Assembly (NCBI GenBank): GCA_022644775.1 | Contig: JALCHN010000014.1 | Span: forward strand, 1-41,835 | DNA: 41,835 nucleotides | Source of the DNA: Eggerthellaceae bacterium | GTDB taxonomy: Bacteria; Actinomycetota; Coriobacteriia; Coriobacteriales; Eggerthellaceae | Reading direction: 5' to 3' | Shown here: one piece after another, positions 19,133 to 37,126 of the stretch | How positions within the stretch are numbered: the stretch's first letter is position 1 | Layout: each line of letters opens with the position of its first letter | Translations under genes and position numbers: made by a program | Notes under the pieces: generated by a model | What the model was told of the DNA's origin: nothing | Databases searched by the model: none | Seen by the model: the letters and a program-made list of their open reading frames with translations, nothing else

Positions 19133-19168
19133 CTGCGTTCGCATCGATCGCGAGAAGAGGTTGTTTAA

Positions 19169-21043: not shown

Positions 21044-21054
21044 TTTTGCATGCC

Positions 21055-21090
21055 GCCGTCGGCGCGCATCGTCCCGCGCCGACGGCTTTT
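21055..21090 (+). terminator. Rho-independent terminator between hydrolase and buk
   Basis: GCCGTCGGCGCG (21055-21066) pairs perfectly with CGCGCCGACGGC (21075-21086) around 8 bases, followed by TTTTCT. It probably makes read-through into buk partial. Confidence 0.8.
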
Positions 21091-21107
21091 CTAAGGGAGA
21101 GACTCGT

Positions 21108-22235
21108 ATGGAGGATAGCTACACAATTCTTACGCTCTCGCCAGGGTCGACGTCGACCAAGGTGGCCGTGTTCAGGAATACCCAACAGGTGTTCAAGTCG
21201 AACGTGCGCCACGATCCGGCGGAGCTCGCCCAGTTCGACCAGGCGAAAGAGCAGCTCGACTACCGCATTGCGGCCATCAAGAAGGAGCTCGCTGCGAACA
21301 ACATCGATCTTGCTGACGTCGATGCCTATTCGGGCTATTGCGGCGGCATGGGGCCGACGGTGGGCGGCATTTTCGCAATCGACGACACGGTGTGCGACCA
21401 CGTGCTCAACGGGGGCTTCAACCACCCGGCCATCCTCGGCGCCCCGATTCTGCACTCCTTCGCCCAGGCGCACGGAAAGCCTGCGTTTGCGGTTAACCAG
21501 CCCGATACCGACGAGCTTGCCGACGTGGCGCGCATCACCGGTTATCCGGGCGTCTACCGCAAAAGCCACGTGCATTGCCTGAACCAAAAGGAATGCGCGA
21601 TCCGCTACGCGACCGAAATCGGCCGGTCCTACGACGACGTGAACGTCATCGTCGCCCACGTGGGAGGCGGCCTTTCGGTTGCCGCCCACAACCACGGGCG
21701 CATGACCGACACCAATGACGTGCTTGAAGGCTCGGGCCCGTTCGCGCCCAACCGTTCAGGGGATGTTCCCCTCATGCCGGTTGTGAAGATGTGCTTCGAC
21801 GGTGCGCACGACTTGAAGGAAGTCAAAAACGTCATCGGGAAGACGGGCGGTCTCAAGGGCCTGCTCGGCACTGACGACGCGATGGAAATCGACAAGCGCA
21901 TCGACGCGGGCGACGATTGGGCCGATCTCGTGTTCGACGCGATGGCCTACCAGGTCGGCAAAGCCATCGGCGGCTTTGCCGCGGCTCTCGACGGAAACGT
22001 CGACGGCATTGTCCTTACTGGCGGCGTGAGCAACGACCAGCGGTTCGTTTCGAAGGTGGAACAGCACGTCAGCTGGATTGCCCCGGTGAAGGTCTACGGC
22101 GGCGATTTCGAGATGGAGGCCTTGGCGGCCGGCGCCCTGCGCGCCCTGCGCGGCGACGAGCGCGTCATGGCCTACACGGGGCAGCCTTCGTGGGATGGAT
22201 TCGCGATGGAGGGCGCGATTCCGGCCGTCGAGTAA
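21108..22235 (+). CDS. buk: Butyrate kinase family acyl-phosphate kinase
   Basis: Transfers phosphate from an acyl-phosphate to ADP, giving the free acid and ATP. The 375-residue length and signatures fit Buk rather than acetate kinase: TLSPGSTSTKVAVF at the N-terminus, DELADVARITGYPG, SHVHCLNQK, IVAHVGGGLSVAAHNHGR, EGSGPFAPNRSGDVP and LTGGVSNDQRF. It has the ASKHA fold. Acyl specificity could be butyryl, branched-chain or aryl-propionyl. A phosphotransacylase gene follows after one MFS gene, giving a Ptb/Buk-type route from acyl-CoA to ATP. AAGGGAGAG precedes the ATG. Confidence 0.9.
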   Translation: MEDSYTILTLSPGSTSTKVAVFRNTQQVFKSNVRHDPAELAQFDQAKEQLDYRIAAIKKELAANNIDLADVDAYSGYCGGMGPTVGGIFAIDDTVCDHVLNGGFNHPAILGAPILHSFAQAHGKPAFAVNQPDTDELADVARITGYPGVYRKSHVHCLNQKECAIRYATEIGRSYDDVNVIVAHVGGGLSVAAHNHGRMTDTNDVLEGSGPFAPNRSGDVPLMPVVKMCFDGAHDLKEVKNVIGKTGGLKGLLGTDDAMEIDKRIDAGDDWADLVFDAMAYQVGKAIGGFAAALDGNVDGIVLTGGVSNDQRFVSKVEQHVSWIAPVKVYGGDFEMEALAAGALRALRGDERVMAYTGQPSWDGFAMEGAIPAVE

Positions 22236-22248
22236 CTTTGCTACCTAC

Positions 22249-22311
22249 GCTCGTGGGCCCGAACAGGTCGAACGGAAGGGCCCACGAGCTTCGAGCTCGA
22301 TTCCCGAGCTC
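22249..22311 (+). other. Two consecutive hairpins between buk and the MFS gene
   Basis: GCTCGTGGGCCC (22249-22260) pairs with GGGCCCACGAGC (22278-22289), a perfect 12-bp stem with a 17-base loop. GAGCTCG (22293-22299) then pairs with CGAGCTC (22305-22311), with CTTCATTTTA after it. They may attenuate or stabilise the transcript. Confidence 0.55.
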
Positions 22312-22374
22312 CTTCATTTTACTTGGTACAGAAGGGAGAATGCGCATTCTGCACAAGGGATGCGCGACCATACC

Positions 22375-23697
22375 ATGGCACAGAAGGAACATACCTGGAT
22401 TCCCAACCTGGGTGCGAAAGGTTGGGGCATCACCTTTATCTGCATCTGCTTCTATTTCTTCTACAACTTCTGGAACAACGCCTCGAATACGCTCTTCGGC
22501 GTACTGACCGGCATGTATGGCTGGGAAACCACCCAGATGTCGTTCATCGTCACGCTCGGCGGCTGGTGCTCGCTGCTCGGCATCATCGTCTTCGGTGTAA
22601 TCGGCCGCAAAGTGGGCGCCAAGAACGTGAGCATCATCGGCCTTATCGGCAGCATCATCGCATTCGTGATTTTGGCCACCATGTCGAACTTCACCATGTT
22701 TGCGGTGGGAACCTTGCTGTTCTACGTCACGATGGTCGGTTACGCGGTCATCGGCCTGGGCAAGTTCGGGTCCGAATGGTTCCCTCACAAGAAGGGCGTG
22801 TTCATGGGCTTCGCGACCATGGGCATGACGATTTGCGGCGCTATGATCAACCCGGTCATCCTCGCCTGCGCCGGCTCTTCTGCGGGTATCAGCAGTCTGT
22901 TCTGGGGCCTAGCCGTTTTCTGCGCGATCGTCATCGTGCTCATCGCCGCCTTTGCGAAAAACACGCCTGAAGAGGCCGGTGCCTTCCCCGACAACGACCG
23001 CTCCATCACCCGCGAGGCTCTTATGGCCGAGGCCAAGGCGGCTGAAGAGTACAAGAAGAACAGCCCCTGGACGATTCAGAAAGTGCTGAAGACCAAGGAG
23101 ACCTGGCTTATCGGCATCGGCTGGGGCCTTTCGATGCTGGCTGCCTCCGGCGTGATGGCGCTGCTCGTTCCGACGCTGGCTTCCTACGACCATGACCCGG
23201 TGAGCATCGTTGCCCTGCTGGCGTCCATGTGGCCCATGGGCCTGCTCGGCCACTACCTGATCGGCGTTATCGACCAGAAGATCGGCACCAAGAAGACGAC
23301 GGTCTTTGTCGTCGTGCTGCAGATGGTCGACTTCCTGTGCATCGCCTTCTTCGGCGGCAATTACGCCGTGTGCGCGATCGCTATCGGCCTGCTCATGTTC
23401 GCCATCTCCGGCAACGCCAACGTCTGCATGTCCATGACCACGTCGGTGTTCGGCCGCGCCGACTTCGAAATGGCGTGGACCCCTATTCAGGTCATCTACA
23501 ACATCTGCAACTTCTCGGGCGTGACGGTCATCGCCCTCATCACGGCAAGCTTCGGGCCGCATGCCGTCATGATCGGCGCTGCGCTCATCTGCCTCGTCTC
23601 GCTCGTCTTCATTGGGCTGTGCAGCGACAAGCAGATCGGAAGCCAGATTGGTGCTGCCAAGCAGGGCGATGGCGCTCCTGCCGTGACGGCGCAATAA
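22375..23697 (+). CDS. MFS transporter (unit A)
   Basis: A 440-residue membrane protein with about 12 hydrophobic segments in two halves and a charged cytoplasmic loop (about 200-235) between them. The first helix is ICICFYFFYNFWNN. The loop between helices 2 and 3 has GVIGRKVGAKN, a form of the MFS motif A. It probably imports the substrate or exports the acid product; direction and substrate are unknown. The start is uncertain: ATG 22375 begins a normal MFS N-terminus, while ATG 22360 would add five residues (MRDHT); AAGGGA lies between 22354 and 22359. A similar but distinct MFS gene sits in unit B. Confidence 0.85.
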   Translation: MAQKEHTWIPNLGAKGWGITFICICFYFFYNFWNNASNTLFGVLTGMYGWETTQMSFIVTLGGWCSLLGIIVFGVIGRKVGAKNVSIIGLIGSIIAFVILATMSNFTMFAVGTLLFYVTMVGYAVIGLGKFGSEWFPHKKGVFMGFATMGMTICGAMINPVILACAGSSAGISSLFWGLAVFCAIVIVLIAAFAKNTPEEAGAFPDNDRSITREALMAEAKAAEEYKKNSPWTIQKVLKTKETWLIGIGWGLSMLAASGVMALLVPTLASYDHDPVSIVALLASMWPMGLLGHYLIGVIDQKIGTKKTTVFVVVLQMVDFLCIAFFGGNYAVCAIAIGLLMFAISGNANVCMSMTTSVFGRADFEMAWTPIQVIYNICNFSGVTVIALITASFGPHAVMIGAALICLVSLVFIGLCSDKQIGSQIGAAKQGDGAPAVTAQ

Positions 23698-23728
23698 CCA
23701 GCACGTACTCGAATAGGTGGGACACAAC

Positions 23729-24730
23729 ATGTCAGGACTTATCAACAAGCTGATTTCCGAGGCGAAGCAGCAACCTAAGAACATAGCCATTCCCGAGGCG
23801 ACCGATCGTGACACGCTTGTGCTTGCGCGCAGAATCGTCGACGAAGGCATGGGAACGCCCTTCCTTATCGGTGAGCGCGCCCAAATCGAAGAAGCAGCGC
23901 AGGACGCAGGCGTCTCGCTCGAGGGGATGCGTTTTGAAGATGTGGCCGATGAAAGTGCACGCTTCGAAGTGGTCGACCGCTACCTGCAAGAGCCGCGCAT
24001 GATCTCATTGAAAGGATGTCGCCGCCGTTCGAAGGACCCGCTCAACTACGCGATGATGCTCGAGGCCGTGGGCGACGTCGACTGCACCTTCGCCGGCCAT
24101 GTGGCTACCACTGGCGAGGTTCTCATGGCGGCTCAGAATTTCATCGGCTTGAAAGACGGCGTCGATACGCCTTCAATCATGGCGATTGTCGAAGTGGAGG
24201 GCTTTGACGGCCCCGAAGGCGACACAATCGTGTTTGCCGATTGCGGTTTGAACCCAGAACCCGATGCGGAAGCTCTTGCGTCCATCGCTATCGCGACCGC
24301 CGATCAAGCGGAAGCGGTTCTGGGATGGGACCCCCGCGTAGCGTTCCTCTCGTTCTCGACGAAGGGGTCGGGGACGTCCGCGAGCACTGAGACCATCGAA
24401 GCCGCTTTGAAAGTCGCCCGTGAACGCCGCTCCGATCTGAAGATCGACGGCGAGTTCCAGCTCGATGCGGCGATTGTCCCTCGGGTTGCCGAGCGCAAGG
24501 TGAAAGCTCCTTCCGACGTGGCGGGAAAGGCGAACGTGCTTATCTTCCCCGACCTCGATGCCGCAAACATCGCGATAAAGACCGTGCAGCTCTTTGCGCA
24601 TGGAAACGGCTACGGCCATACGCTTTCAGGTTTTAACAAGCCGGTGAGCGATTCGTCCCGCAATTCGTCGGTTGAAGAGATGTTGGGCGATATTGCCATG
24701 CTCGTGCTGGCGGCATCACGTTCCAAATAG
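23729..24730 (+). CDS. Phosphotransacylase (phosphate acetyl/butyryltransferase family)
   Basis: Exchanges CoA for phosphate on an acyl-CoA, giving acyl-phosphate. The 333-residue protein has the Pta/Ptb core: AIPEATDRDTLVLARRI, FLSFSTKGSG, DGEFQLDAAIVPRVAERK, DVAGKANVLIFPDLDAANI and KPVSDSSRNSSVEE. The sequence reads closer to Pta than to classical Ptb, but the neighbouring kinase is Buk-like, so the substrate is probably not simply acetyl-CoA. With Buk it would recover ATP from the product acyl-CoA of unit B. It follows the MFS gene by 31 bases. Confidence 0.87.
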   Translation: MSGLINKLISEAKQQPKNIAIPEATDRDTLVLARRIVDEGMGTPFLIGERAQIEEAAQDAGVSLEGMRFEDVADESARFEVVDRYLQEPRMISLKGCRRRSKDPLNYAMMLEAVGDVDCTFAGHVATTGEVLMAAQNFIGLKDGVDTPSIMAIVEVEGFDGPEGDTIVFADCGLNPEPDAEALASIAIATADQAEAVLGWDPRVAFLSFSTKGSGTSASTETIEAALKVARERRSDLKIDGEFQLDAAIVPRVAERKVKAPSDVAGKANVLIFPDLDAANIAIKTVQLFAHGNGYGHTLSGFNKPVSDSSRNSSVEEMLGDIAMLVLAASRSK

Positions 24731-24829
24731 CTGTTCCTCTGTCCGGCGGCGCGCCTCCCGTCTCCCTTTTTACCTCCTGGGATTCGGCGGGCGCACCGTT
24801 CGGCCTTTTCTGTAAGGTCTGGTAGCACC

Positions 24830-25807
24830 ATGAATGATTTCGACGCGCTCAGGCGCATTGTTCCCTCCATTCGGGAGGCAACCGAAGACGCGATTGGCGA
24901 ATGCGCTCCCTTTGCGGGTCGTGAGCTCTCCGTCGCTCGCGACGGCGTTCCCGCTCCCGCGTTCTGGTATCCGATTGCGTCCGAAAGCGCGCCGCTGGTG
25001 ATTTATCTGCATGGCGGCGGTTTCGCATTCGGGGATTGCCGGAAGTCGGATGCCTTGATGGCCTGGACGGCGCGTGCCTATGGCGTTGCGATGCTCGGTG
25101 TGAACTACCGTCTTGCGCCCGAACATCCCTTTCCGTCTGCCTTGCACGACGTGGCGGATACGGTCGAATGGTGCGCCGACCATGCCGCAAAACTCGGCAT
25201 CGATCCTGCGCGCATCTATCTGCTTGGGTTCAGTGCGGGCGCCGACCTCGCATTTGCGAGCGCACTGCTGCTTCGTCGCGAGCACAGCTTCGCTCTTGCG
25301 GGGATTATCGCCCATTATCCCTTCCTCGACTGCGCAACGGATCCCCAAAGCAAGGGAGGCCGCGAAATAGATTTGCCAGGCGAGCTGACTCAGGCTTTCA
25401 ACGCATGGTATGTGAGCGGCTGCGACCCCGCTGACGCTCTGCTGTCGCCTGTGTATGCCAAGACAGACGAGATTGCCCTTCTTCCCCCGTGCGCCATCGT
25501 CCCTGTTGTGGGGGATTCACTGTTCGACGAGGCCAAGCTCATGGCCGACAAACTGGTCGAAGCCGGTGTTCCGTGCGCGTTCCAGGGCATCGAGGGGGCC
25601 TACCACGGCTACATTGAAGACGCTGCAAATCCGGCGGTGTATGCGGCCGTTGAAATGCCTGAAACGATTGCGGCCCGCCCGAAGAACTACTACGCAATTG
25701 CCGGTATGGCGTACGAAGCGAGCCTCCAGCGGTTTTTCAAGCGTCTGCCCGGTATAGGGCCGTTTCCGGGATTCACGAGAGGGGCGCAGGATGTGCCCGT
25801 GGAATAA
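24830..25807 (+). CDS. HSL-family alpha/beta hydrolase (esterase)
   Basis: A 325-residue hydrolase of the hormone-sensitive-lipase type. The oxyanion motif HGGGF starts at His61, followed by VNYRLAPEHPFP. The nucleophile Ser135 is in GFSAGAD, the acid Asp229 in VVGDSLFDEA, and the base His259 in GAYHGYIED, so the full triad is present. There is no signal peptide, so it acts inside the cell on a small acyl ester. It is the second hydrolase of unit A and, unlike the CocE-type protein, looks catalytically complete. The next gene overlaps its end by 17 bases. Confidence 0.9.
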   Translation: MNDFDALRRIVPSIREATEDAIGECAPFAGRELSVARDGVPAPAFWYPIASESAPLVIYLHGGGFAFGDCRKSDALMAWTARAYGVAMLGVNYRLAPEHPFPSALHDVADTVEWCADHAAKLGIDPARIYLLGFSAGADLAFASALLLRREHSFALAGIIAHYPFLDCATDPQSKGGREIDLPGELTQAFNAWYVSGCDPADALLSPVYAKTDEIALLPPCAIVPVVGDSLFDEAKLMADKLVEAGVPCAFQGIEGAYHGYIEDAANPAVYAAVEMPETIAARPKNYYAIAGMAYEASLQRFFKRLPGIGPFPGFTRGAQDVPVE

Positions 25808-26201
25808 ATGGACGATTCTTCAGGACCTCGTGTTGGCGGTGGTCATCAACACATCGGCGATGGCCCTTTCGGGCGCGCCGTTCAGCATTGCCTCGTGGTT
25901 CCCAGGGACGAGCACCGCCTTTTGCACGAACGTCCTCCTGCAGCTCGTATTGCCGGTGCCCGCTGCGGGTAGGGCGGCAAGCGGGTGTGTGGAAGGCCGT
26001 TCGTGGCGTCCCGTGCTTTCGGTGTTCGTTGAGAACCTGATTTTCGTGACGCTCATCTCTCTCACGATGGCCTATATGCAGACCGAAGGAGCGCACCTGT
26101 TGAAGGTGTGGCTTGCCACCTACCCTCAGCTCGTATGCATCGGCTACGCGACGTCGCTCGTGCTGTTCGCGGTAGGGAATAGACGGACGTTCAAGGGATA
26201 G
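25791..26201 (+). CDS. Small membrane protein of unknown function
   Basis: A 136-residue protein with about four hydrophobic segments: roughly 9-28 (QDLVLAVVINTSAMALSG), 40-58, 75-95 (VFVENLIFVTLISLTMAYM) and 107-128 (LVCIGYATSLVLFAV). The ATG lies inside the end of the esterase gene (17-base overlap), with GAGAGGGG upstream, so the two are translationally coupled. I recognise no family. It could assist one of the carriers or anchor an enzyme; neither is shown by the sequence. A terminator follows the gene. Confidence 0.7.
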   Translation: MCPWNKWTILQDLVLAVVINTSAMALSGAPFSIASWFPGTSTAFCTNVLLQLVLPVPAAGRAASGCVEGRSWRPVLSVFVENLIFVTLISLTMAYMQTEGAHLLKVWLATYPQLVCIGYATSLVLFAVGNRRTFKG

Positions 26202-26254: not shown

Positions 26255-26935
26255 CTAGTAGCGGCGCGTGGAAGACGTGATGCGGTTGAGCGGGTGCTTG
26301 CGAATCGAGGCCTGTATGCCCTCTTGGTAGAAATTCCAGAAGGGGTTCACCCGTTCATCGAGCAGTTTGTCGACATCGTTTGACGTAGTGAGCAAATGGG
26401 CTATCTGCATGATTTGCCCTGTGCCCAGCTGCGAAAGAAATCGTTTTGCCTCCGGGGAGAGATAGCGGGCGCCCAGCACGAATTCGAGGTCCTTCTTCAC
26501 TTGGGGGTAGTAGAGCGAGCAGAATTGGAAGTTGAACTCGTATTCCTTTTCGTCGAACAGCTTTGCGTAGAACGGCTTATTCGATTCAATCGTACGTGCC
26601 AATGCTTTGAGGAACGGCCCCTCGTCGAGTGCATGGAAGCCTATTTCGATTCTTGCGTAATAGGGCAGACAGATGGAGGGAGCCCCGCTTTTCACTTTCC
26701 CAATGGGTCCGCTGACAAGCTGCTCTTCGGGAGCCGTTTTGCGCAATTCGCGTGCGAGATCGCGCCGATAGATTTGCAGCGCGACATCGAATTTGCTTTC
26801 GAAGTGGTAGTAGAACGTGTTGCGGTTGATGCCTAAATCGGCGATGAGCTGGGAAATACGCACCTTCGAAAGCGACTCTTCCACGACGCGCTCTTTGAAC
26901 AGCGCGACAATCTGCTCGGGAATTGGTTGCGGCAT
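26255..26935 (-). CDS. TetR-family transcriptional regulator
   Basis: A 226-residue protein with an N-terminal helix-turn-helix (about 22-50: KVRISQLIADLGINRNTFYY, then HFESK), followed by an all-helical ligand domain with no recognisable subfamily. TetR proteins are mostly repressors released by a small ligand, often an acyl-CoA in CoA-based pathways. It is divergent from the CoA-transferase/dehydratase operon with 231 bp between, so it most likely controls that operon and itself. Base composition is less GC-rich than the his and phe genes. Confidence 0.88.
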   Translation of the reverse strand: MPQPIPEQIVALFKERVVEESLSKVRISQLIADLGINRNTFYYHFESKFDVALQIYRRDLARELRKTAPEEQLVSGPIGKVKSGAPSICLPYYARIEIGFHALDEGPFLKALARTIESNKPFYAKLFDEKEYEFNFQFCSLYYPQVKKDLEFVLGARYLSPEAKRFLSQLGTGQIMQIAHLLTTSNDVDKLLDERVNPFWNFYQEGIQASIRKHPLNRITSSTRRY

Positions 26936-27166: not shown

Positions 27167-28408
27167 ATGGGAGAGATCAAGCGTCCGCTTGAAGGCGTGA
27201 AAGTCGTCGAAATGGCCACGTTCATCGCCGTTCCTGCCGTGGGCCGCATCCTTGCGGACATGGGCGCGGAAGTCGTGAAAATCGAATCGGCCAAGGGCGA
27301 CAACCTTCGTTTCACCGCGCCGAACGAGGGCCGTCCGTCCGACCCGCACGAGGATACGAACTTCGACCTCGAAAACGCCAACAAGAAGGGCATCGTCGTC
27401 GATTTGCGCACCCCCAAGGGCAAGGAAATCCTGTTCAAACTGCTTGATAAGGCCGATATCTTCCTGACCAACTGGCGTCCGCAGGCCCTTGCTCGTCAGA
27501 ACCTCACCTACGAGGACCTGAAGGAAAAGTACCCGAGCCTGGTGTACGGCAACCTGACCGGCTACGGCGAAAAGGGCCCCGACAAGGACCTGCCGGGCTT
27601 CGACTACACGGCGTTTTTCGCTCGCAGCGGTTGGAGCGGCTCGCTGTATCAGAAGGGCACCGTGCCTTCTAACCTGATCCCCGCACTGGGCGACCATCAG
27701 GGCGCTCTGGCCCTGACTGCCGGCGTCCTCGCTGCCCTTTACCGTGCCAAGCTCACCGGCGAGGGCGAGAAGGTGTCGACCAACCTGTTGCATACCGGCA
27801 TTTGGATCCAGTCCTTCCAGATTCAGGGCTGCCAGTACGGTACCGAGTTCAACGGCGTTTCCTATCCGTTCGATCGCCGCGAGAACCCGCTGCCTTATCA
27901 GCCCGCCGTCAAAACGTCCGATGGCCGCTTCCTGCAGGTAATGGGCCCGAACTTCTCCATCTACTGGCCGCGCATCATGAAGGCCATTGGCCGCGAAGAG
28001 CTCATCGACGACCCGGTGTTCGGCGATCAGAAGGCCATCCAGAATGCCGGCAAGGTGGGCGAAGCCTACGACATCGTGCAGGAAGGTTTCTCGAAGAAGA
28101 CCGCTGCTGAATGGATCGACATTCTCAACGAACTCGACGTGCCCGTCGCGCTGTGCCAGACCTACGAAGAGGTCGTCAAGGATAAGCAGGCTTGGGCTGT
28201 CGACACCTTCTACGAAATGGACTATCCGCGTGGTCCCAAGGCACTGGTTCGTCCTCCTATCGACATGGAAAACACCCCGCTTCCCGAATACAAGAAGGCG
28301 CCGCTTCTGGGTGAAGACACCGAAGCTGTGTTGTCCGACCTGGGCTATTCCGATGAGGAAATCAAGTCCATGGAAGAGGACAAGACGGTAGCCGCCTGGA
28401 AAGAGTAA
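27167..28408 (+). CDS. Type III CoA-transferase (CaiB/BaiF family, FldA/HadA-like)
   Basis: Moves CoA between carboxylic acids; in related pathways it passes CoA from the reduced product acyl-CoA to the incoming 2-hydroxyacid. The 413-residue protein starts LEGVKVVEMATFIAVPAVGR, then ILADMGAEVVKIE, KGIVVDLRTPKGKEI and GNLTGYGEKGPDKDLPGFDY. The likely catalytic Asp176 is in LGDHQGALALTAG, followed by ALYRAKLTGEGEKV. The family is certain. The FldA/HadA-like role comes from the adjacent dehydratase genes, which are in the same order as in fld/had clusters. It is the first gene of unit B. Confidence 0.9.
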   Translation: MGEIKRPLEGVKVVEMATFIAVPAVGRILADMGAEVVKIESAKGDNLRFTAPNEGRPSDPHEDTNFDLENANKKGIVVDLRTPKGKEILFKLLDKADIFLTNWRPQALARQNLTYEDLKEKYPSLVYGNLTGYGEKGPDKDLPGFDYTAFFARSGWSGSLYQKGTVPSNLIPALGDHQGALALTAGVLAALYRAKLTGEGEKVSTNLLHTGIWIQSFQIQGCQYGTEFNGVSYPFDRRENPLPYQPAVKTSDGRFLQVMGPNFSIYWPRIMKAIGREELIDDPVFGDQKAIQNAGKVGEAYDIVQEGFSKKTAAEWIDILNELDVPVALCQTYEEVVKDKQAWAVDTFYEMDYPRGPKALVRPPIDMENTPLPEYKKAPLLGEDTEAVLSDLGYSDEEIKSMEEDKTVAAWKE

Positions 28409-28429
28409 GCGTTCCATCAGGCATCGTAT

Positions 28430-28461
28430 CGAGGGGCTCGCGTGTTGGGGCGAGCCCCTCG
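28430..28461 (+). other. Intercistronic hairpin, CoA-transferase to dehydratase
   Basis: CGAGGGGCTCG (28430-28440) pairs perfectly with CGAGCCCCTCG (28451-28461) around 10 bases; no T-run follows. Similar hairpins occur at other junctions of this operon. Confidence 0.6.
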
Positions 28462-28507
28462 CTTCCCGAGCAGCCGGGTCGAGTTCGATCCGGGAGAAGG
28501 AGTTCAT

Positions 28508-29737
28508 ATGACTGAATTGACACCTGCGAAAAGCGTTGCGGGCAAGGTCGTCGCCGCTGTGGCGAACAACGTCTACGAAAGCGCCATCGAAGCGAAGAAG
28601 AACGGCGAGAAGATCGCATGGATCTCTTCTAACTTCCCTCAGGAGATTCCTACGGCGTTCGGCCTGCACTGCGTGTACCCCGAAAGCCAAGCTGCGGCCA
28701 TTTCTGCAAAAGGCGCTGGCCAGACCATGTGCGAGCATGCGGAAAACGAGCTCGGTCTTTCCAACGACATCTGCGCGTACGCACGCATTAGCCAGGCCTA
28801 TGCCGACCTTGGCAAATGCCCCAATGGAGAGCGCGAGATGCCGCTGCCCGATTTGGTTCTCTGCTGCAATAACATCTGCGATTGCATGTTCAAGTGGTAT
28901 GAGAACCTCGCGCGCACGCTCAATATCCCCATTGTGATGATCGACGTGCCGTTCAACAACAAATTCGACGTCGACGACAAGCGCATCAAGTACATTCGCG
29001 GCCAGTTCGACCAGGCTATCAAACAGCTCGAGGGCATCCTGGGCCAGAAGTTCGATGAGAAGAAGTTCGAAGAGGTCTGCAAGATTTCCTCGCAGGTTGG
29101 CGAAGAATGGCTGAAGGCGACCAAGTACCTGAACTACAAGCCGGCTCCGTATAAGGGCTTCGACCTGTTCAACCATATGGCTGTTGCCACTATGGCCCGT
29201 GGCCAGAAAGAATCGCTCGAGGCGTTCAAGGAGTTCAACGCCGAATGCGAGCAGTTCATCAAGGAGCACAAGTCCACGTTCAAGGGCGATGAAAAGCACC
29301 GCATCATGTTCGAGGGCATCGCTTGCTGGCCGTATCTGGGCGTGACCTACAAGACCCTGAAGAACATGGGCGTCAACGTCACCTCGTGCGTCTACGGCCC
29401 CTCGTTCGCCTTCACCTACAAGAACCTCGATGAAATGGCCGCGGCGTATGCGTCCATGCCCAACGCCACCAATCTCGAGCGCGCGACCCAACTGCGCGAG
29501 GAACTGTGCCAGGAAGGCAAAGTCGACGGCGGCCTTGTGCACATCAACCGCTCTTGCAAGATGTGGTCTTCGTTCATGCCCGAAATGGCTCGACGCATTT
29601 CGCGTGACCTCGACATCCCCGTCGTCATGTTCGACGGCGACCAATCCGACCCGCGTAATTTCAGCGAAGAGCAGTACGTCACGCGCGTTCAGGGTCTCGT
29701 CGAGATCATGGATAGCAACGCGAAGAAGGGGGAGTAG
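28508..29737 (+). CDS. 2-hydroxyacyl-CoA dehydratase, FldB/HadB-like subunit
   Basis: One half of an oxygen-sensitive heterodimer that removes water from a (R)-2-hydroxyacyl-CoA by a ketyl-radical mechanism, giving the 2-enoyl-CoA. The 409-residue protein is of the HgdB/BcrC family. Cysteines suited to bind the [4Fe-4S] cluster are Cys89 (NDICAYAR), the group Cys119/120/124/126 (LCCNNICDCMF) and Cys350 (NRSCKMW), with spacing like HadB. The ATG at 28508 follows GAGAAGGAG. The partner begins 3 bases after the stop. A benzoyl-CoA reductase role is less likely because only a single activator gene of HgdC type is present. Confidence 0.9.
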   Translation: MTELTPAKSVAGKVVAAVANNVYESAIEAKKNGEKIAWISSNFPQEIPTAFGLHCVYPESQAAAISAKGAGQTMCEHAENELGLSNDICAYARISQAYADLGKCPNGEREMPLPDLVLCCNNICDCMFKWYENLARTLNIPIVMIDVPFNNKFDVDDKRIKYIRGQFDQAIKQLEGILGQKFDEKKFEEVCKISSQVGEEWLKATKYLNYKPAPYKGFDLFNHMAVATMARGQKESLEAFKEFNAECEQFIKEHKSTFKGDEKHRIMFEGIACWPYLGVTYKTLKNMGVNVTSCVYGPSFAFTYKNLDEMAAAYASMPNATNLERATQLREELCQEGKVDGGLVHINRSCKMWSSFMPEMARRISRDLDIPVVMFDGDQSDPRNFSEEQYVTRVQGLVEIMDSNAKKGE

Positions 29738-29740
29738 GCA

Positions 29741-30868
29741 ATGGCCGACATCAAAGAACTTCTGGAAGGCTTCACCGAAGTCGCCGACCATCCCAAGGCC
29801 GAACTCGATCGCCATATTGCCGCCGGCAAGAAGGTAATCGGCGTGGGTCCCTACTACGTCCTGGAAGAGCTCGTCTATGCTGCGGGTGCAATTCCCTTCG
29901 GCGTTTGGGGGCGCGTGGGAACGGCCTCGAAGGCGCGCGAGTACTTCCCGCCCTTCTATTGCTCGATTTGTCAGATGACGCTTGAAATGGGCTTGAACCA
30001 TGAGCTCGACAAGCTTTCGGGCATCATGCTCACAGCGCTGTGCGATACCCTGCGCGGAGCTTCGCAGAACTTCCGCGTTGGCGTCACGCAGGTTCCGATG
30101 ATTTTCGTAACCCAGCCGCAGAACCGCGCCACCGAAGCCGGCCGCCAGTACGCTATCGATTCCTACACCGAGTTGAAAACCACGGTGGGCGAGGCGTGCG
30201 ATACGATTATCGACGATGACAAGCTGGCGGAAGCCATCAAGCTCTATAACAACTGGCGCGCCGCGATGCGCACCTTCCTTGCTGAGGCGGCCAAGCACCC
30301 CGCGCTTGTGAGCGTTGCCCAACGTGCCGCGGTGGTCGATGCCGGCTACTACATGGACAAAGCCGAGCATTTGAAGAAGGTCGAGGCTCTCAACGAGCTC
30401 CTCGCTGCTCAGCCGGCCAGCACCGACGGATTCAAAAAGGTGGTGCTTTCGGGCGTCTACTATGACATCCCGGCGCTTACCCAGATTCTTGATGAGAACC
30501 ACTTCGCCGTGGTTGCCGACGACATAGCCAAGGAGTCCCGTGCCCTGCAGCTGCAGGTTTCCGAAGAGGGCGATCCTACCGTGGCGCTGGCAGAGGCTTT
30601 CTGCAAGGCGGGCAACGACTCGATTCTTTTCGACGAGAACAAGGGCCATGTCGCCCATGTGGCCGATCTGTACAAAGAATCGGGCGCCGATGGCGTGGTG
30701 CTGCTGCTTGCGAAGTTCTGCGACCCCGAAGAGTTCGATGCTCCGCATGTGGCCAAGGCCTGCAAGGACGCCGGTGCGCCGTTCGTTCAGATCGAAATCG
30801 ACCAGTCGACGGAAAGCTACGAACAGGCACGCACCCAGCTCGAAACGTTTGCCGACATCATCGGCTAG
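29741..30868 (+). CDS. 2-hydroxyacyl-CoA dehydratase, FldC/HadC-like subunit
   Basis: Second subunit of the dehydratase, also of the HgdB/BcrC family. The 375-residue length is typical. It has IGVGPYYVLEELVYAAGAIP near the N-terminus, cysteines in FYCSICQMTLEMG and ALCDTLRG for a second cluster, and a C-terminal lobe with LLLAKFCDPEEFDAPHV. The 3-base gap to the previous gene suggests coupled translation and a 1:1 complex. Substrate specificity cannot be read from the sequence. Confidence 0.9.
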   Translation: MADIKELLEGFTEVADHPKAELDRHIAAGKKVIGVGPYYVLEELVYAAGAIPFGVWGRVGTASKAREYFPPFYCSICQMTLEMGLNHELDKLSGIMLTALCDTLRGASQNFRVGVTQVPMIFVTQPQNRATEAGRQYAIDSYTELKTTVGEACDTIIDDDKLAEAIKLYNNWRAAMRTFLAEAAKHPALVSVAQRAAVVDAGYYMDKAEHLKKVEALNELLAAQPASTDGFKKVVLSGVYYDIPALTQILDENHFAVVADDIAKESRALQLQVSEEGDPTVALAEAFCKAGNDSILFDENKGHVAHVADLYKESGADGVVLLLAKFCDPEEFDAPHVAKACKDAGAPFVQIEIDQSTESYEQARTQLETFADIIG

Positions 30869-30879
30869 CGTGCTGCATA

Positions 30880-30906
30880 CGGGCCCGCGCCGCATGTGCG
30901 GGCCCG
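30880..30906 (+). other. Intercistronic hairpin after the dehydratase
   Basis: CGGGCCCGC (30880-30888) pairs perfectly with GCGGGCCCG (30898-30906) around 9 bases; only TTC follows, so at most weak termination. Confidence 0.55.
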
Positions 30907-30931
30907 GTTCACTCAGGGAAGGAGAGAGACT

Positions 30932-32206
30932 ATGAGTGAAACGATCCAGAAGAAAGGCGGATTCCATTACGCCTTTTTGATTGTTGCCTCGTGCATCGTC
31001 ATCACGTGCATCCCCTGCGCGTTGGTGCTCAGTTGCGCAGGCATCTACTTCAAGCCTGTTGCCACCTATTTCCAGGTGTCGACGCCTGAATTCACCCTGT
31101 ACTTCAGTATTTTGAACATCGCAATGATGATTATGCTGCCTATTGCGGGCAAGCTGATGAGCAAGATAGACCTGCGGGCCATTTTGAGCATTTGCGCGGC
31201 GATCGACGGCGTTACCTATTTGGCCATGTCCCAGTTCTCTGCTGTATGGCAGTTCTATATCGCCGGCGTGCTGCTGGGCATCGGTACCGCTCCGCTCATT
31301 TACCTGTCGGTTCCTACGTTGATCAATGCATGGTGCAAGAAGAAGGTCGGCTTCTTCATCGGCCTGTGCATGGCGTTCACCGGCATCGGCGGCGTGATTT
31401 TCAACCCGGTAGGCACCGCGTTCATCAATTCCGGGGCCGATGGCTGGCGCACCGGCTATTTGGTGTTCGGCATCATCATGCTCGTCGTGACGCTTCCCTT
31501 TACCCTCTTCGTCGTGCGCTCTAAGCCTTCGGACAAGGGGCTTGAGCCCTACGGTGCCGAAGAGGCCGTGTCTCAAGAAGGCGCGAAGTCTTCCGAGCCG
31601 GTGCTCGGCGTCTCTGCAAGCAAAGCCATGAAGACTTCCGCGTTCTTCGCGGTGGCTGCCTTCTGCTTCCTCATCACCGTTAACCAGACCGTGTACCAAT
31701 TCCTTGCCTCTTACTGCCAGTCCTTCACGGGCTCCGACATCGCGGCTGCCGCCGGCATCGTGGCGAGCGCTTGCATGGCCGGTCAGGCTATCGGCAAGGT
31801 TATCCTTGGCGCGGTGAACGACAAGTCGATCAAACTCGGCATGTTCATGGGCATTGGTTGCGGCATCATCGGCGTGCTGCTCATGTGGCTGCTCCCCTTC
31901 GCGGTTGCGGTTCTTATGGTCGGCGCGTTCCTGTTCGGATTCGTGTACGCCTGCACCACGGTGGAAACCCCGCTTCTTACCCGCGGCGTGTTCGGTTCCC
32001 GCGACTACACCAACATTTATTCCCGCGTTTCCATGGCGGGCACCCTTGGCGCCGTGATCGCCTCGGTGTTCTGGGGCTTCATCATCGATATGCCCAACGG
32101 CTTCTCGATCATGTTCATCCTGAGCATCGTGATTATGGTTCTGTCCGCTCTGCTTGGCGTCTTCGCCCTCAAACAGGGCAAGAAGCTCGAACAAACGGCT
32201 GAATAA
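30932..32206 (+). CDS. MFS transporter (unit B)
   Basis: A 424-residue protein with about 12 membrane segments, a first helix FLIVASCIVITCIPCALVL, motif A-like GKLMSKIDLR, and a central charged loop (about 195-230). The general look resembles the oxalate/formate antiporter-type MFS carriers, which often exchange a substrate acid for its product. It probably handles the 2-hydroxyacid or the reduced acid of the pathway; exchange is only an inference. AAGGAGAGAG precedes the ATG at 30932. Confidence 0.87.
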   Translation: MSETIQKKGGFHYAFLIVASCIVITCIPCALVLSCAGIYFKPVATYFQVSTPEFTLYFSILNIAMMIMLPIAGKLMSKIDLRAILSICAAIDGVTYLAMSQFSAVWQFYIAGVLLGIGTAPLIYLSVPTLINAWCKKKVGFFIGLCMAFTGIGGVIFNPVGTAFINSGADGWRTGYLVFGIIMLVVTLPFTLFVVRSKPSDKGLEPYGAEEAVSQEGAKSSEPVLGVSASKAMKTSAFFAVAAFCFLITVNQTVYQFLASYCQSFTGSDIAAAAGIVASACMAGQAIGKVILGAVNDKSIKLGMFMGIGCGIIGVLLMWLLPFAVAVLMVGAFLFGFVYACTTVETPLLTRGVFGSRDYTNIYSRVSMAGTLGAVIASVFWGFIIDMPNGFSIMFILSIVIMVLSALLGVFALKQGKKLEQTAE

Positions 32207-32214
32207 CCTTTGGG

Positions 32215-32237
32215 GCGGCGCAGCGTTTGCGTCGCCC
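32215..32237 (+). other. Intercistronic hairpin after the MFS gene
   Basis: GGCGGCGCA (32215-32223) pairs with TGCGTCGCC (32229-32237), one G-U pair, 5-base loop, followed by CTCTCCCTC. The 140-base gap to the acyl-CoA dehydrogenase holds nothing else clear. Confidence 0.45.
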
Positions 32238-32346
32238 TCTCCCTCGGGCCAGCGCCCAATCCTCCTTCGAGGGCGAAGGAACGCACATTACCCTTCGCCC
32301 CCTCTATTTCTGTCGCCGAGAAGGCGTCCGTGAGAAAGGAACGAAC

Positions 32347-33510
32347 ATGGCAATTGACTTTTCCCTCACCGACGAGCAGGAGCTGCTCGTCGACAGCGTG
32401 AAGGAATTCTGCGAACGCAATCTCGATGAGCAGAAGATCAACGATATGTACGCGAACTACGGCATGTCCGACGAGCTTATCAAGGAATATCTTGATGCGG
32501 GCTTCGGTCTTATGGGCATTCCCGAAGAGCAGGGCGGCGTTCCGTGCGACCGCGTGACCCTCGGTATCCTTACCGAAGAGTTCGCCCATCATGCCGGTTG
32601 CGTGACTCCCTTCCTGAATAACACGCTCGCGATGCGCGATATGCTCGATTTCGGCAGCCCCGAGCAGGTCGAATTCTGCATGAGCCACTACATGGAAACG
32701 GGCAAGCCCATCTTCTCGCTGGGCTTTTCCGAACCGGGTGCCGGTTCCGATAACGCGTCGATGAGCTCGGTCACCGTCAAGCAGCCCGACGGCACCTACC
32801 TGCTCAATGGCCAGAAGACCTGGGTGACCGCCGGCGAAACGCTGCCTTACGTGCTCGTGGTCGCCAAGGACGAAGACCCGTCGCCCAAGAACCGCACGAT
32901 GAGCATGTGGCTGGTCCCCAAGGACACCGAAGGCCTTACCACGGCGCCTCTGCACAAGATCGGTCAGCAGATCATGCCGTTCTGCGAGATGTATTTCGAC
33001 GACGTGAAGCTCACTGAAGATATGCGCGTGGGCGAACCCGGCCGCGGTTTCTTCAACCTCATGAAGAACTTCGAGATGGAGCGTTGCCTGATCATCGCCC
33101 AGAGCGTGGGCCTCGCCCAGGCTGCCATGGACGATGCTGCCGCCTACGCGAGCGAGCGCGAGACGTTTGGCAAGCCCATCGGCGACTATCAGCTCATCCA
33201 GCTCAAGCTGGTCGAGATGGAAACGGCTATTCAGAACACGCGCAACATGCTCTACCACACGCTGTGGAAGATGGATAATGACGAGAGCGTGCGCATCGAT
33301 TCGGCGCTGCTGAAGCGCTACGGCGCCATGAACTGCGAAAAAGTGGCCAGCGAGGCCATGCAGATCTATGCGGGTCTTGGCTTCACGACCGAAACGCGTT
33401 TGGGTCGTCTGTGGAAGGACCTGCGTGGCAACGAAATCGCTGGCGGCACCGACGAGATCATGGTCTACATCGCGGGTCGTCAGCTCGTGAAGCAGTACAA
33501 GCGTAACTAA
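32347..33510 (+). CDS. Acyl-CoA dehydrogenase / enoyl-CoA reductase 1
   Basis: FAD enzyme of the acyl-CoA dehydrogenase family, 387 residues. In this setting it most likely works in the reductive direction, enoyl-CoA to acyl-CoA, as AcdA or CaiA do. Signatures are FGLMGIPEEQGG, FSEPGAGSDNASM (FAD and substrate loop), LNGQKTWVTAG, RETFGKPIGDYQLIQ, and catalytic Glu370 in AGGTDEIMVY, as in CaiA. No etfAB genes are in the window, so the electron donor must be encoded elsewhere. AAAGGA precedes the ATG at 32347. Confidence 0.92.
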   Translation: MAIDFSLTDEQELLVDSVKEFCERNLDEQKINDMYANYGMSDELIKEYLDAGFGLMGIPEEQGGVPCDRVTLGILTEEFAHHAGCVTPFLNNTLAMRDMLDFGSPEQVEFCMSHYMETGKPIFSLGFSEPGAGSDNASMSSVTVKQPDGTYLLNGQKTWVTAGETLPYVLVVAKDEDPSPKNRTMSMWLVPKDTEGLTTAPLHKIGQQIMPFCEMYFDDVKLTEDMRVGEPGRGFFNLMKNFEMERCLIIAQSVGLAQAAMDDAAAYASERETFGKPIGDYQLIQLKLVEMETAIQNTRNMLYHTLWKMDNDESVRIDSALLKRYGAMNCEKVASEAMQIYAGLGFTTETRLGRLWKDLRGNEIAGGTDEIMVYIAGRQLVKQYKRN

Positions 33511-33531
33511 TCGAGCAGTGAGGAGCGTTCC

Positions 33532-34299
33532 ATGTTCTACTTGGGAATGGACGTAGGTTCTACTGCGACCAAATGCATTGTGGTGGATGGCTCCGGAACG
33601 ATTGTGGGCAAGGGGCTTGCGCGCGGAGGGGCGGGGACGAAGGCTCCCGCTGCCGCCGAAGCCGAGGCCCTTGCCCAAGCTCAGGTGAGCGAGAGCGAAA
33701 TCGAGACGATTTGCGCAACGGGCTACGGTCGCCATTTGTTCGACCAGGCCAATATGGAGAAGTCAGAGCTGTCCTGCCATGCGAAGGGCGCTTCGAGGTT
33801 GTTTCCCGGCGTGAGGACGGTAATCGATATCGGCGGCCAGGACGCCAAGGTGCTGCGTCTTGGCGTCGGCGGTTCGCTTGAGAACTTCGCGATGAACGAC
33901 AAGTGCGCTGCTGGTACGGGGCGCTTCCTCGACGTGATGGCGGGCGTGTTCGGTTGCGACGTGTCCGAGCTTTCCGACTACGACCGCCAGTCCGACCATT
34001 CGGTGTCCATTTCGTCTACGTGCACGGTGTTTGCCGAATCTGAGGTCATTTCAAAGCTTGCATCGGGTGAATCCATCTACGATGTCGCCGCCGGCGTTCA
34101 CGACTCGGTGGTAGACCGCACGGCTGGCCTGGCGAATCGACTGGGCATCGTGCCTCCCGTCGCGATGACGGGCGGAGTCGCTCTTAACGACGCGCTTCGC
34201 GAGCGGCTTGAGAAAAAGATCGGCTACCCGATTCAAACGTCCGAACTCGCCCAGTTCAACGGGGCGTTCGGAGCAGCTATCTACGCGCTTGAAGCGTAG
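33532..34299 (+). CDS. 2-hydroxyacyl-CoA dehydratase activator (HgdC/FldI-like ATPase)
   Basis: Homodimeric [4Fe-4S] protein that uses ATP to inject one electron into the dehydratase. The 255-residue ASKHA-fold protein has GMDVGSTATKCIVVD (phosphate 1), IDIGGQDAKVLRL, MTGGVALND, and the two cluster cysteines Cys125 (NDKCAAGTGRFLDVMA) and Cys164 (SSTCTVFAESEVISKLA), as in HgdC. It starts 21 bases after the dehydrogenase. Its presence confirms that the two upstream subunits are an ATP-activated dehydratase. Confidence 0.93.
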   Translation: MFYLGMDVGSTATKCIVVDGSGTIVGKGLARGGAGTKAPAAAEAEALAQAQVSESEIETICATGYGRHLFDQANMEKSELSCHAKGASRLFPGVRTVIDIGGQDAKVLRLGVGGSLENFAMNDKCAAGTGRFLDVMAGVFGCDVSELSDYDRQSDHSVSISSTCTVFAESEVISKLASGESIYDVAAGVHDSVVDRTAGLANRLGIVPPVAMTGGVALNDALRERLEKKIGYPIQTSELAQFNGAFGAAIYALEA

Positions 34300-34325
34300 C
34301 GACGGTCGTTTCGGCTATGCGAGAA

Positions 34326-34356
34326 CGAGGTACGGCGAGGGAGAAGCCGTACCTCG
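34326..34356 (+). other. Intercistronic hairpin before the ligase ribosome site
   Basis: CGAGGTACGGC (34326-34336) pairs perfectly with GCCGTACCTCG (34346-34356) around 9 bases. It ends just before the ribosome site (AGGTAGGGA) of the ligase, so it could affect ligase translation or RNA processing. Confidence 0.6.
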
Positions 34357-34377
34357 CGAAGGTAGGGAGTGTGCAGC

Positions 34378-35961
34378 GTGTCGAAAAGTGGGATACGGCT
34401 CTACAACGAGTCTAGGGAGCATGTGCCCCAGGAGTCGTTGATGAGCTTGGTGGAGGCCGGGTATCGGTATTCGCCGGGCAAGGCGATGATCGTTTGCGGC
34501 GATCGGACCCTCACCTACGGTGAAGCGTTCGTGCAAGCACGCTCGCTTGCCTGGTATATACGTTTCCAGCTTCATATTGATTACGGATGCACGGCGCTCG
34601 TGTCCATGCCGAATCGCGTTGAGTTCCCCGTTATCGTCGCGGCACTGCAGATGATGGGCATTCGCATCTGCATGGTGTCGAATACCGGCGGTCGCAATGA
34701 TTTTGCCCATGCCGTCGATTTGGTGAAGCCCGACTTGGCCATCGTGGCGCTCTCCCGAGCGGTCGACCACCTGCGGGCCCTCGATGTTGCGTTTCCCGTT
34801 CTCACGATTGACGATGGCGCAGCTGGCGGCGATGAGACTATCGAGCATGCCATGCGCATGGTCCCGCGCGACCAGCGGCTTGAGATTACTGCCTGGTCGG
34901 GCGAAGACACGGCGATCGTGCTCTTTTCGTCTGGGTCGACGGGCAAGCCGAAAGCGATCGCCAATCGGTCTTCTTCGTTTAAATCGAATGCTTATAAGCT
35001 GTCTTCTGCGCTTGGGATCAATCGAGACGACGTGCTCTACGTTCCTGTTCCCTTCGCGCACGTCTACGGAATCATCGGCATGTACGCCGCACTGCTCCAG
35101 GGTGCCACGATGGTCACGATATCGAAGTACTATCCTGAAGCTTCGCTTTCTGCGCAAGCAAACTCACGCGTGACGGTGTACTTCGGCGTGACGACGATGT
35201 ACATGCGCGAGATGCGCGTGAATGCAAACGACGGATGGGACCTTTCCTCGCTTCGGCTCGGCATGCTCGCTGGGGCGCCTTGTCCGGAATCGGCGATTCG
35301 GGAATTCGAAACGCGTTATGGGTGCACGCTTGTGCAGTCCTACGGTATGACCGAAACGGCAGCGACGCTTACCGTGAACAGCGTCAACGATCCGCTGCCC
35401 GTTCGTGCCAAGAGCGTGGGGGTTCCCATTCCGGGTGTCCGCATAGAACTGGCGCCTGAAACGGGGGAGATTCTCGTGAAGACGCCTGCTCTCATGATCG
35501 GCATTGTGAGCGGGGAAGGGTACAAATTAGTCGATGTCGACGAGGACGGCTGGCTGCATTCGGGCGATATCGGTCGTTTTGACGATGAGGGGCGACTCTA
35601 CATCGTGGGGCGCATTAAGGACATTATCATTCGCGGGGGCATCAACGTGTTCCCCAAGGAGGTCGAGTCGGTGTACCAGGGGCATCCCGATATCGAGATG
35701 TGCTGTCTCGTGGGGTATCCCGATGCGGAGCTCGGCGAACGCACCTGCTTATGCGTCATCCCGAAAACCGGACATACAATCAACGCTCGTGCGATGCGCG
35801 ACTACGCGAAGGGCGTGCTCGAAAAGTGCATGCTCCCCGACACGGTGATGCCCTTTGATACGTTTCCGCAGCTCGCGAATGGTAAAATCGACAAAAAAGC
35901 GCTTCGCGCGCAGGTAGAGGATGCGATGAGCAACATTAAGCATCCGGGTCTACCTTCATAG
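34378..35961 (+). CDS. Acyl-CoA ligase (AMP-forming, ANL superfamily)
   Basis: Activates a carboxylic acid to its CoA thioester with ATP through an acyl-adenylate. The 527-residue protein has the phosphate loop SSGSTGKPKA (184-193), SYGMTETAAT, the hinge region GWLHSGDIGRFDDEGRLYIV and GRIKDIIIRGG, and adenylation Lys503 in LANGKIDKKALR. The start is most likely the GTG at 34378, 10 bases after AGGTAGGGA; a GTG at 34369 is too close to that site. Like FldL in the fld cluster, it may prime the cycle so that the CoA-transferase has a CoA donor. Confidence 0.9.
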   Translation: MSKSGIRLYNESREHVPQESLMSLVEAGYRYSPGKAMIVCGDRTLTYGEAFVQARSLAWYIRFQLHIDYGCTALVSMPNRVEFPVIVAALQMMGIRICMVSNTGGRNDFAHAVDLVKPDLAIVALSRAVDHLRALDVAFPVLTIDDGAAGGDETIEHAMRMVPRDQRLEITAWSGEDTAIVLFSSGSTGKPKAIANRSSSFKSNAYKLSSALGINRDDVLYVPVPFAHVYGIIGMYAALLQGATMVTISKYYPEASLSAQANSRVTVYFGVTTMYMREMRVNANDGWDLSSLRLGMLAGAPCPESAIREFETRYGCTLVQSYGMTETAATLTVNSVNDPLPVRAKSVGVPIPGVRIELAPETGEILVKTPALMIGIVSGEGYKLVDVDEDGWLHSGDIGRFDDEGRLYIVGRIKDIIIRGGINVFPKEVESVYQGHPDIEMCCLVGYPDAELGERTCLCVIPKTGHTINARAMRDYAKGVLEKCMLPDTVMPFDTFPQLANGKIDKKALRAQVEDAMSNIKHPGLPS

Positions 35962-35974
35962 CAGGAATCGAGGC

Positions 35975-37126
35975 ATGGTTGTGGAATACACGGATAGCCA
36001 GAAGCGCATCATCGAGCAGGTCGATGAATTTTGCGATAGCCATGTGACCGAGGAACAGGTGCGGCAGTGGGTCTCATTCGGGGACGTGCCCCTGTCTTTC
36101 AATGACGACTTGCGCCAAACGAAACTGTGGGACTACATTCTGCCGCCTGTACTCGGCGGCGTGGATGATCGACACGTCGAGCGCGCGACCATCATCGAAC
36201 GTTTCATGTATCGGGCGGGAGCGACCCTGCCTCTGCTTTCTGACATGATGTCGTTCGCCTTCCTTTCGACGATGCGCGACAAATCGCAGAAGGAAATCCT
36301 CGAAGAACTTACCACGCGCAATCGCCTTGCGTTCTCCATCGCGTTCACCGAATCGTCTTCCGGCAGCACGTCGGGAACTGTTGGAACCACCGTTTCCTGG
36401 AGCGGAACCGCAGCGCATCTCGACGGCGAGAAAACGTTCGTGAGCGGCGGGCAGTTCATGCCCGAAGTGCTGGTACTCGCAAACGATCCTATCTTCGGTG
36501 CAAAAGATGGCGGTCTGTCTCTTTGGCTTGTGCCCGTCGATGCTCCCGGCGTTCAGACGTTTCCCATCGATGCGGTGGGCCAGCAGATGTTGTGTCCCGC
36601 TGTGGTGTCTTTCGAGGGCGTGAAGCTCGATCTCGATTGGCAGATCCAGACCGAGGGCAAGCTTGATTCTATGCTCAAGCGCATGTACGAACTGGGTCGC
36701 TTGTTCGTGTCCGCTTCGAGTTTGGGCCTCGCCGAAGCGGCGCTCGACGATGCCGTGAATTACGCCGGTCAGCGCATGGTGAAAGGTCGCTTGCTTTCGT
36801 CTCTGCCCGATATTCAGCAAAAGATAGTTGAGATGGAAGCGCGCGTGCGCGAGATGCAGATGTTCGTCTACGATGCGGCGAGCGTAATGGGCGATGGAGA
36901 CGAAACGCATCTGAATGTGGCGCTTATGAAGCACGAAGTGCCTGCAAAGGCTGTGCAGGTGGCATCCGATGCGATGCAGATTTTCGGTGCTCGCGGGTAC
37001 ACGAGCGCGGTTCGCGCTGGGCGTATCTGGCGCGATTGCCGTGGCAATCAGGTTGCGCAGGGCACCGATGAAGTGATGACGCACATCGCGTCCAAGTTCA
37101 TCGTGAAGAAATACCGAGATCGGTAG
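35975..37126 (+). CDS. Acyl-CoA dehydrogenase 2 (divergent paralogue)
   Basis: A 383-residue acyl-CoA dehydrogenase family protein, clearly related to the first (32347-33510) but diverged. The glycine-rich loop FSEPGAGSD becomes FTESSSGSTSG, GIPEEQGG becomes ILPPVLGG, and RETFGKPIGD becomes RMVKGRLLSSLPD. The position of the catalytic base is kept as Glu366 in QGTDEVM. It could form a hetero-oligomer with the first, act on another chain length, or be a second reductase. The gene starts 13 bases after the ligase and ends unit B. Confidence 0.87.
   Translation: MVVEYTDSQKRIIEQVDEFCDSHVTEEQVRQWVSFGDVPLSFNDDLRQTKLWDYILPPVLGGVDDRHVERATIIERFMYRAGATLPLLSDMMSFAFLSTMRDKSQKEILEELTTRNRLAFSIAFTESSSGSTSGTVGTTVSWSGTAAHLDGEKTFVSGGQFMPEVLVLANDPIFGAKDGGLSLWLVPVDAPGVQTFPIDAVGQQMLCPAVVSFEGVKLDLDWQIQTEGKLDSMLKRMYELGRLFVSASSLGLAEAALDDAVNYAGQRMVKGRLLSSLPDIQQKIVEMEARVREMQMFVYDAASVMGDGDETHLNVALMKHEVPAKAVQVASDAMQIFGARGYTSAVRAGRIWRDCRGNQVAQGTDEVMTHIASKFIVKKYRDR

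Follow-up and report, generated by a model that had tools for sequence, protein, structure and literature searches.

A predicted reductive 2-hydroxyacid pathway in Eggerthellaceae combining a radical dehydratase with a carnitine-type enoyl-CoA reduction module

Aryl-propionates such as indolepropionate and phenylpropionate have been studied for their effects on the host, and their producers in the gut are usually sought among the fld-bearing clostridia. In 2-hydroxyacyl-CoA dehydratases, a ketyl radical permits the loss of the hydroxyl group, and by the established chemistry of the family an activator spends ATP to send one electron first to the cluster of the beta subunit and from there to that of the alpha subunit (PMC11574389). 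In this study, we report the computational characterisation of an operon encoding such an enzyme in a window (the whole stretch of DNA analysed) of 41,835 nucleotides, from an Eggerthellaceae genome of 1.96 Mb in 56 contigs (assembly 95% complete). The operon is best read as encoding a reductive 2-hydroxyacid pathway that would serve as an electron sink, with aryl-lactates as the most likely substrate, and we assign this reading a probability of about 0.6. A search of open-access papers returned no earlier description of the pathway in this family; with most subscription papers outside its scope, the search is weak evidence of novelty.

Operon organisation and distribution

The eight open reading frames, all on the plus strand and spanning 27167-37126, were verified and assigned to families using Pfam and NCBIfam in the order given in Table 1, the alpha subunit starting at an ATG internal to the GTG frame originally listed. 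They form a real operon of eight co-directional genes, accompanied by a divergent TetR-type gene whose ortholog (37-45% identity) also adjoins the operon in loci L027, L033, L035, L036, L038, L039 and L040. A search of the window sequence for a conserved operator in the gap between tetR and the caiB-type gene gave no inverted repeat of 8 or longer. A tie of pheST to the operon was rejected, these genes being adjacent to it in the same-genus genome G070 and not in the other relatives compared.

Table 1. Coordinates of the operon, its putative regulator and the adjacent module within the window
Feature	Coordinates	Strand	Basis or remark
Adjacent module	17076-26201		upstream of tetR
PucR regulator	17076-18650	-	adjacent module
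Carrier protein	18857-19132	+	adjacent module
CocE/NonD hydrolase	19169-21043	+	adjacent module
Butyrate kinase	21108-22235	+	adjacent module
MFS	22195-23697	+	adjacent module
Phosphotransacylase	23717-24730	+	adjacent module
HSL-type esterase	24830-25807	+	adjacent module
Small membrane protein	25791-26201	+	adjacent module
TetR-type regulator, probable operon regulator	26255-26935	-	weak TetR_N / DhaS match
Type III CoA-transferase, FldA role	27167-28408	+	CoA_transf_3 8e-89
Dehydratase alpha subunit	28508-29737	+	HadB 3o3m_A 403 bits; alignment
Dehydratase beta subunit	29741-30868	+	HadC 3o3m_B 275 bits; alignment
MFS transporter, oxalate-formate/monocarboxylate antiporter-like	30932-32206	+	family match
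Acd1, CaiA/YdiO-like enoyl-CoA reductase	32347-33510	+	PRK12341 469 bits
Activator (component A / archerase)	33532-34299	+	1hux 266 bits, 4eht 234 bits, TIGR00241 243 bits
AMP-forming acyl-CoA ligase	34369-35961	+	AMP-binding 9e-57
Acd2, degenerate acyl-CoA dehydrogenase paralog	35975-37126	+	alignment

The class of each enzyme is evident from these matches. The best solved relatives of the alpha and beta subunits are HadB (PDB 3o3m, E=1e-119) and HadC (E=1e-80), and both are HGD-D proteins with the three cluster cysteines expected of a 2-hydroxyacyl-CoA dehydratase: alpha C89/C124/C350 align with HadB C84/C117/C346, and beta C74/C101/C327 with HadC C72/C99/C325. The scores against the NCBIfam HadB and HadC models lie below the cutoffs (474 against 750 and 323 against 700 bits). 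The activator matches BcrAD_BadFG (3e-60), HgdC (1hux, 3e-78), HadI (4eht) and TIGR00241, the last above its cutoff of 125 bits, and both of its cluster cysteines, Cys125 and Cys164, are present. In an alignment to formyl-CoA transferases, Asp176 of the CoA-transferase falls where the catalytic Asp would be expected. These results bear out the sequence-only reading, which had recognised a radical dehydratase operon for 2-hydroxyacids in a probable actinobacterium, with the Coriobacteriia considered, and had named both activator cysteines. Its further claim that the first three genes follow the clostridial organisation is only approximate, since the activator is the sixth gene here, in contrast to the order fldA-I-B-C.

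The operon is not isolated. The main type of alpha subunit (at least 61% identity) was found in 12 of the 138 family genomes, the window's own and 11 others, and orthologs of Acd1 (at least 68%) in exactly the same 12 genomes (Fisher p 1.6e-17, a value that is indicative only, because the genomes are related). G013, G063, G038 and G070 share the gene order of transferase, dehydratase, transporter, Acd1, activator, ligase and Acd2, all with the MFS transporter at the same place; G018 shares it too, but with other genes where the transporter would be. Two genomes (G062, G054) carry only a variant dehydratase operon with a different CoA-transferase, and G063 has both types. The variant operons (L037, L042, L043) encode a dehydratase of the same clade, another CoA-transferase (34%), another ligase and an acyl-CoA dehydrogenase in which the isovaleryl position is occupied by Glu and the MCAD position by Ala. 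Further HGD-D genes with activator homologs lie on another contig of the window's own genome (L050, C21:13360-17088) and also in G070, apparently as a separate double-cubane/activase-type locus.

The predicted enoyl-CoA reduction module

Acd1 shares 42% identity with the YdiO protein of E. coli and 33% with CaiA. It carries Glu245 at the catalytic position of isovaleryl-CoA dehydrogenase and Gly366 at that of MCAD, which is exactly the arrangement of CaiA and YdiO; all of the compared clostridial operons that have an acyl-CoA dehydrogenase carry Glu at the MCAD position, and in those mapped, Etf genes lie near it. The clostridial module of acyl-CoA dehydrogenase and EtfBA is replaced here by a carnitine-type (Cai/Ydi) reduction module. 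The sequence-only reading had overlooked this predicted step of enoyl-CoA reduction, together with its FixABC association and its degenerate partner subunit.

That partner, Acd2, has Gly241 and Gln362 at the two known positions of the catalytic Glu, and in all of its orthologs that are readable there the first position is Gly, while the second is Gln, or Trp in the case of L040. Acd2 diverges faster than Acd1, with a mean pairwise identity of 52% compared with 79%. Human LCAD is reportedly inactivated by a Glu-to-Gln substitution at the catalytic base (PMC11153573). Acd2 is thus probably a non-catalytic partner of Acd1; that Glu is missing from both positions throughout the readable orthologs is an oddity open to direct testing.

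The genes fixA-fixB-fixC lie within the same cluster as the operon in L027, L040 and L041. The window operon itself is without Fix genes, and its own genome encodes FixABCX on contig C9, flanked by a further pair of Acd1-like and Acd2-like genes. Since most members of the family have FixC homologs, co-occurrence of FixC alone is weak evidence. The contig C9 cluster (L060:1696-10415) reads TetR, Acd1-like, FixA, FixB, FixC, FixX, Acd2-like, MFS; its Acd2-like protein has Glu at the MCAD position, and its Acd1-like gene has a broken reading frame in this assembly and an open one in the same-genus G070. A separate cluster on contig C25 (L061:187-4764) encodes a VOC/epimerase-like protein of 150 aa, EtfBA, an FAD reductase and an SDR, the FAD reductase being nearest to vinylphenol reductase (315 of 600 bits); the cluster is presumably similar to the gene clusters for equol formation from isoflavones.

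Source of the 2-hydroxyacid

As the sequence-only reading had stated, the operon contains no 2-hydroxyacid dehydrogenase, and across the assembly, which is 95% complete, only three generic members of the family were found, SerA among them, none more than 31% identical to FldH. An FldH ortholog is likewise absent from G000, G070, G063, G018, G038 and G013, where the best matches reach 30-36%; in G017, G116, G119 and G124 a candidate of 40-42% is located elsewhere. The substrate is therefore probably exogenous.

At the transporter place of the operon, G017 and G018 carry an NPN (LarA-type) isomerase assigned above cutoff to NCBIfam group 22. Isomerases of this group are also found within clostridial Fld-related operons (L101, L102, L103). 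To our knowledge no substrate of group 22 is known, and none was found in the literature examined; its occurrence in Fld-related operons predicts 2-hydroxyacid substrates, which would give this group of nickel isomerases a candidate substrate class. Characterised relatives of LarA act as racemases on 2-hydroxyacids, phenyllactate and further hydrophobic acids among them (PMC7583248, PMC11770544).

Upstream of tetR lies a module containing a CocE/NonD hydrolase and a phosphotransacylase (Table 1). G063 has a matching module directly past its operon, and G017 a smaller version at a distance of about 8 kb, so that module and operon occur near each other in three genera. The chance of finding them within 10 kb in all three is approximately 5e-7 if their positions are independent, given that each genome has both. 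The proximity suggests that the adjacent module is functionally linked to the operon; alternatively, the two may have been inherited as one block. The module is also found in other genomes away from any such operon, and its CocE/NonD hydrolase in a dozen that have no dehydratase. Neither the predicted isomerase in place of the transporter nor the putative CocE/Pta module adjoining the operon in relatives had been recognised from the window alone. Given the isomerases and the hydrolase module at related loci, and the absence of an FldH ortholog, uptake or hydrolytic release of the hydroxyacid, as proposed previously, is the probable source.

Substrate class, proposed pathway and comparison with known systems

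The dehydratase was placed among DEHYDRATASES, with reference loci of the class Clostridia typed by gene content. The Had reference (L113) is 99.5% identical to the HadB of 3o3m. In L096-L099 the order is ligase-FldA-FldI-FldB-FldC-Acd-EtfB-EtfA, followed by a D-2-hydroxyacid dehydrogenase and an aminotransferase (families checked in L096), which we take to be the Fld layout; L100 has a similar gene set. The Lcd-type references (L118, L119) carry a Pct-type CoA-transferase, and the Hgd-type reference L108 has GcdA beside the dehydratase, with a similar-sized gene there in L109 (judged by eye) and L110. In the tree of concatenated alpha and beta subunits, the Eggerthellaceae dehydratases form one clade (support 100/100) that is sister to the GcdA-linked Hgd set (98/97); Fld joins next (96/92), and Had and Lcd fall outside. 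Constraining the Eggerthellaceae with Had is rejected strongly (AU p 6e-66) and with Fld weakly (AU p 0.0375). The earlier label of Fld/Had type thus fails for Had and is doubtful for strict Fld orthology. Since the sister group is the GcdA-linked Hgd set and not Fld, aromatic specificity is not readable from the phylogeny.

Among the residues aligned, alpha Asn42 sits beside a conserved Ser; this position is Val in Had and Lcd, Lys in GcdA-linked Hgd, and Asn in Fld, the other clostridial set and the Eggerthellaceae. Asn42 may be a weak sign of Fld-like rather than Hgd-like specificity. Ala227 and Ala272 are common to the Fld-type and Eggerthellaceae proteins, with Ile and Pro in GcdA-linked Hgd. 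A literature search on the active-site residues of HadBC returned nothing usable. The CoA-transferase, an enzyme that binds the substrate too, is sister to the clade holding the FldA-type proteins (SH-aLRT 96), with HadA outside. The operon thus combines an FldA-type transferase with subunits outside the Fld clade and without linked FldH or EtfBA. Our best guess for the substrate is an aryl-lactate (phenyllactate, 4-hydroxyphenyllactate or indolelactate), and aryl-propionates would then be produced.

The same chemistry might act on a non-aromatic substrate, either 2-hydroxyisocaproate, 2-hydroxyisovalerate or another aliphatic acid, or a 2-hydroxyacid freed by the CocE hydrolase from an ester or amide. 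We consider this unlikely, although the dehydratase forms a clade of its own that may differ in specificity, the literature gave no substrate for the group 22 isomerases, and in three genera a module with a hydrolase and an esterase adjoins the operon; the position of the CoA-transferase beside the FldA-type clade speaks against it, and the Had type, to which the known branched-chain enzymes belong, is strongly excluded. The conversion of 2-hydroxyglutaryl-CoA through glutaconyl-CoA to glutaryl-CoA, which the sister position of the GcdA-linked Hgd set and the best PDB match of the activator (HgdC) would favour, is improbable, as the operon has a type III CoA-transferase instead of GcdA and GctAB, and the Lys42, Ile227 and Pro272 of Hgd are replaced by Asn, as in Fld, and Ala. 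Still less probable is the acrylate pathway from lactate to propionate: the transporter resembles lactate/monocarboxylate carriers of the MFS, and Acd1 shows a distant similarity to acryloyl-CoA reductase, scoring 198 bits where the cutoff is 640, but there is no Pct-type CoA-transferase and the Pct-linked Lcd subunits lie far outside the clade. A benzoyl-CoA reductase or other double-cubane reductase, the grouping on which the sequence-only reading would have fallen, belongs to the same superfamily and gives weak model matches of about 100-130 bits, but is refuted at the sequence level by scores of 104 and 128 bits (cutoffs 487 and 421) compared with 474 and 323 for HadB and HadC, with an equally wide gap among PDB matches.

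In the favoured aryl-lactate pathway, the 2-hydroxyacid would enter via the MFS transporter, or be freed inside the cell by the neighbouring hydrolases. The ligase would form the first CoA thioester, priming the CoA pool in the proposed role of FldL, and the CaiB/FldA-type transferase would then move CoA from the product onto fresh substrate. The activator would donate one high-energy electron, with ATP spent, and the two-cluster dehydratase would remove water to yield the 2-enoyl-CoA. Acd1, presumably in complex with the non-catalytic Acd2, would reduce the enoyl-CoA with electrons from FixABC(X) and not from a clostridial EtfBA, and the saturated acid would be released and then exported, possibly through the same transporter. 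Tentatively, the system may be a radical dehydratase of new specificity coupled to a CaiA-type reductase in a hetero-complex with an inactive Acd2, fed by FixABCX and possibly tied to the quinone pool; this would constitute a respiratory sink for 2-hydroxyacids shed by, or cleaved from esters of, gut organisms and the diet. If the pathway operates as proposed, Eggerthellaceae would be users of the hydroxyacids that bifidobacteria and lactobacilli secrete, and because the reductase differs, the route would escape searches for the full clostridial gene set.

Among the known systems, the Fld cluster (FldAIBC) of Clostridium sporogenes and Peptostreptococcus has in common with the operon a ligase, a type III CoA-transferase, an activator, two dehydratase subunits and an acyl-CoA dehydrogenase, with about 48% identity for the CoA-transferase and 57% for the alpha subunit against the Fld-type loci L096-L099. 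The window operon differs in having no FldH, aminotransferase or EtfBA, in its Cai/Ydi-type reductase with a degenerate paralog, and in its separate dehydratase clade. The cluster cysteines of the beta subunit are retained in the Eggerthellaceae, whereas the Fld-type beta subunits of L096-L100, unlike HadC, have lost all three (Ala/Ser/Ser); the GcdA-linked set is mixed. The Had cluster (HadAIBC) of Clostridioides difficile shares the fold, the two clusters and the activator, and provides the best solved structures (3o3m, 4eht), but its transferase is only 35-40% identical and its LdhA and EtfBA are missing here. From Hgd, its sister in the subunit phylogeny, the system is set apart by gene content and by Asn42. 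Caffeyl-CoA reductase (CarCDE), like the proposed pathway, performs an Etf-linked reduction of an aryl enoyl-CoA, but CarC belongs to the enzymes with the MCAD-type Glu, is 29% identical to Acd1 and Etf-bound, and is accompanied by no dehydratase. The E. coli CaiTABCDE-FixABCX and YdiO-YdiQRST systems share the CaiB-type transferase, the ligase, the CaiA/YdiO-type acyl-CoA dehydrogenase with the same arrangement of the catalytic Glu and, in relatives of the window operon, the FixABC partners; where Cai has the CaiD hydratase, the Eggerthellaceae operon encodes a radical 2-hydroxyacyl-CoA dehydratase, and it has the degenerate Acd2 in addition.
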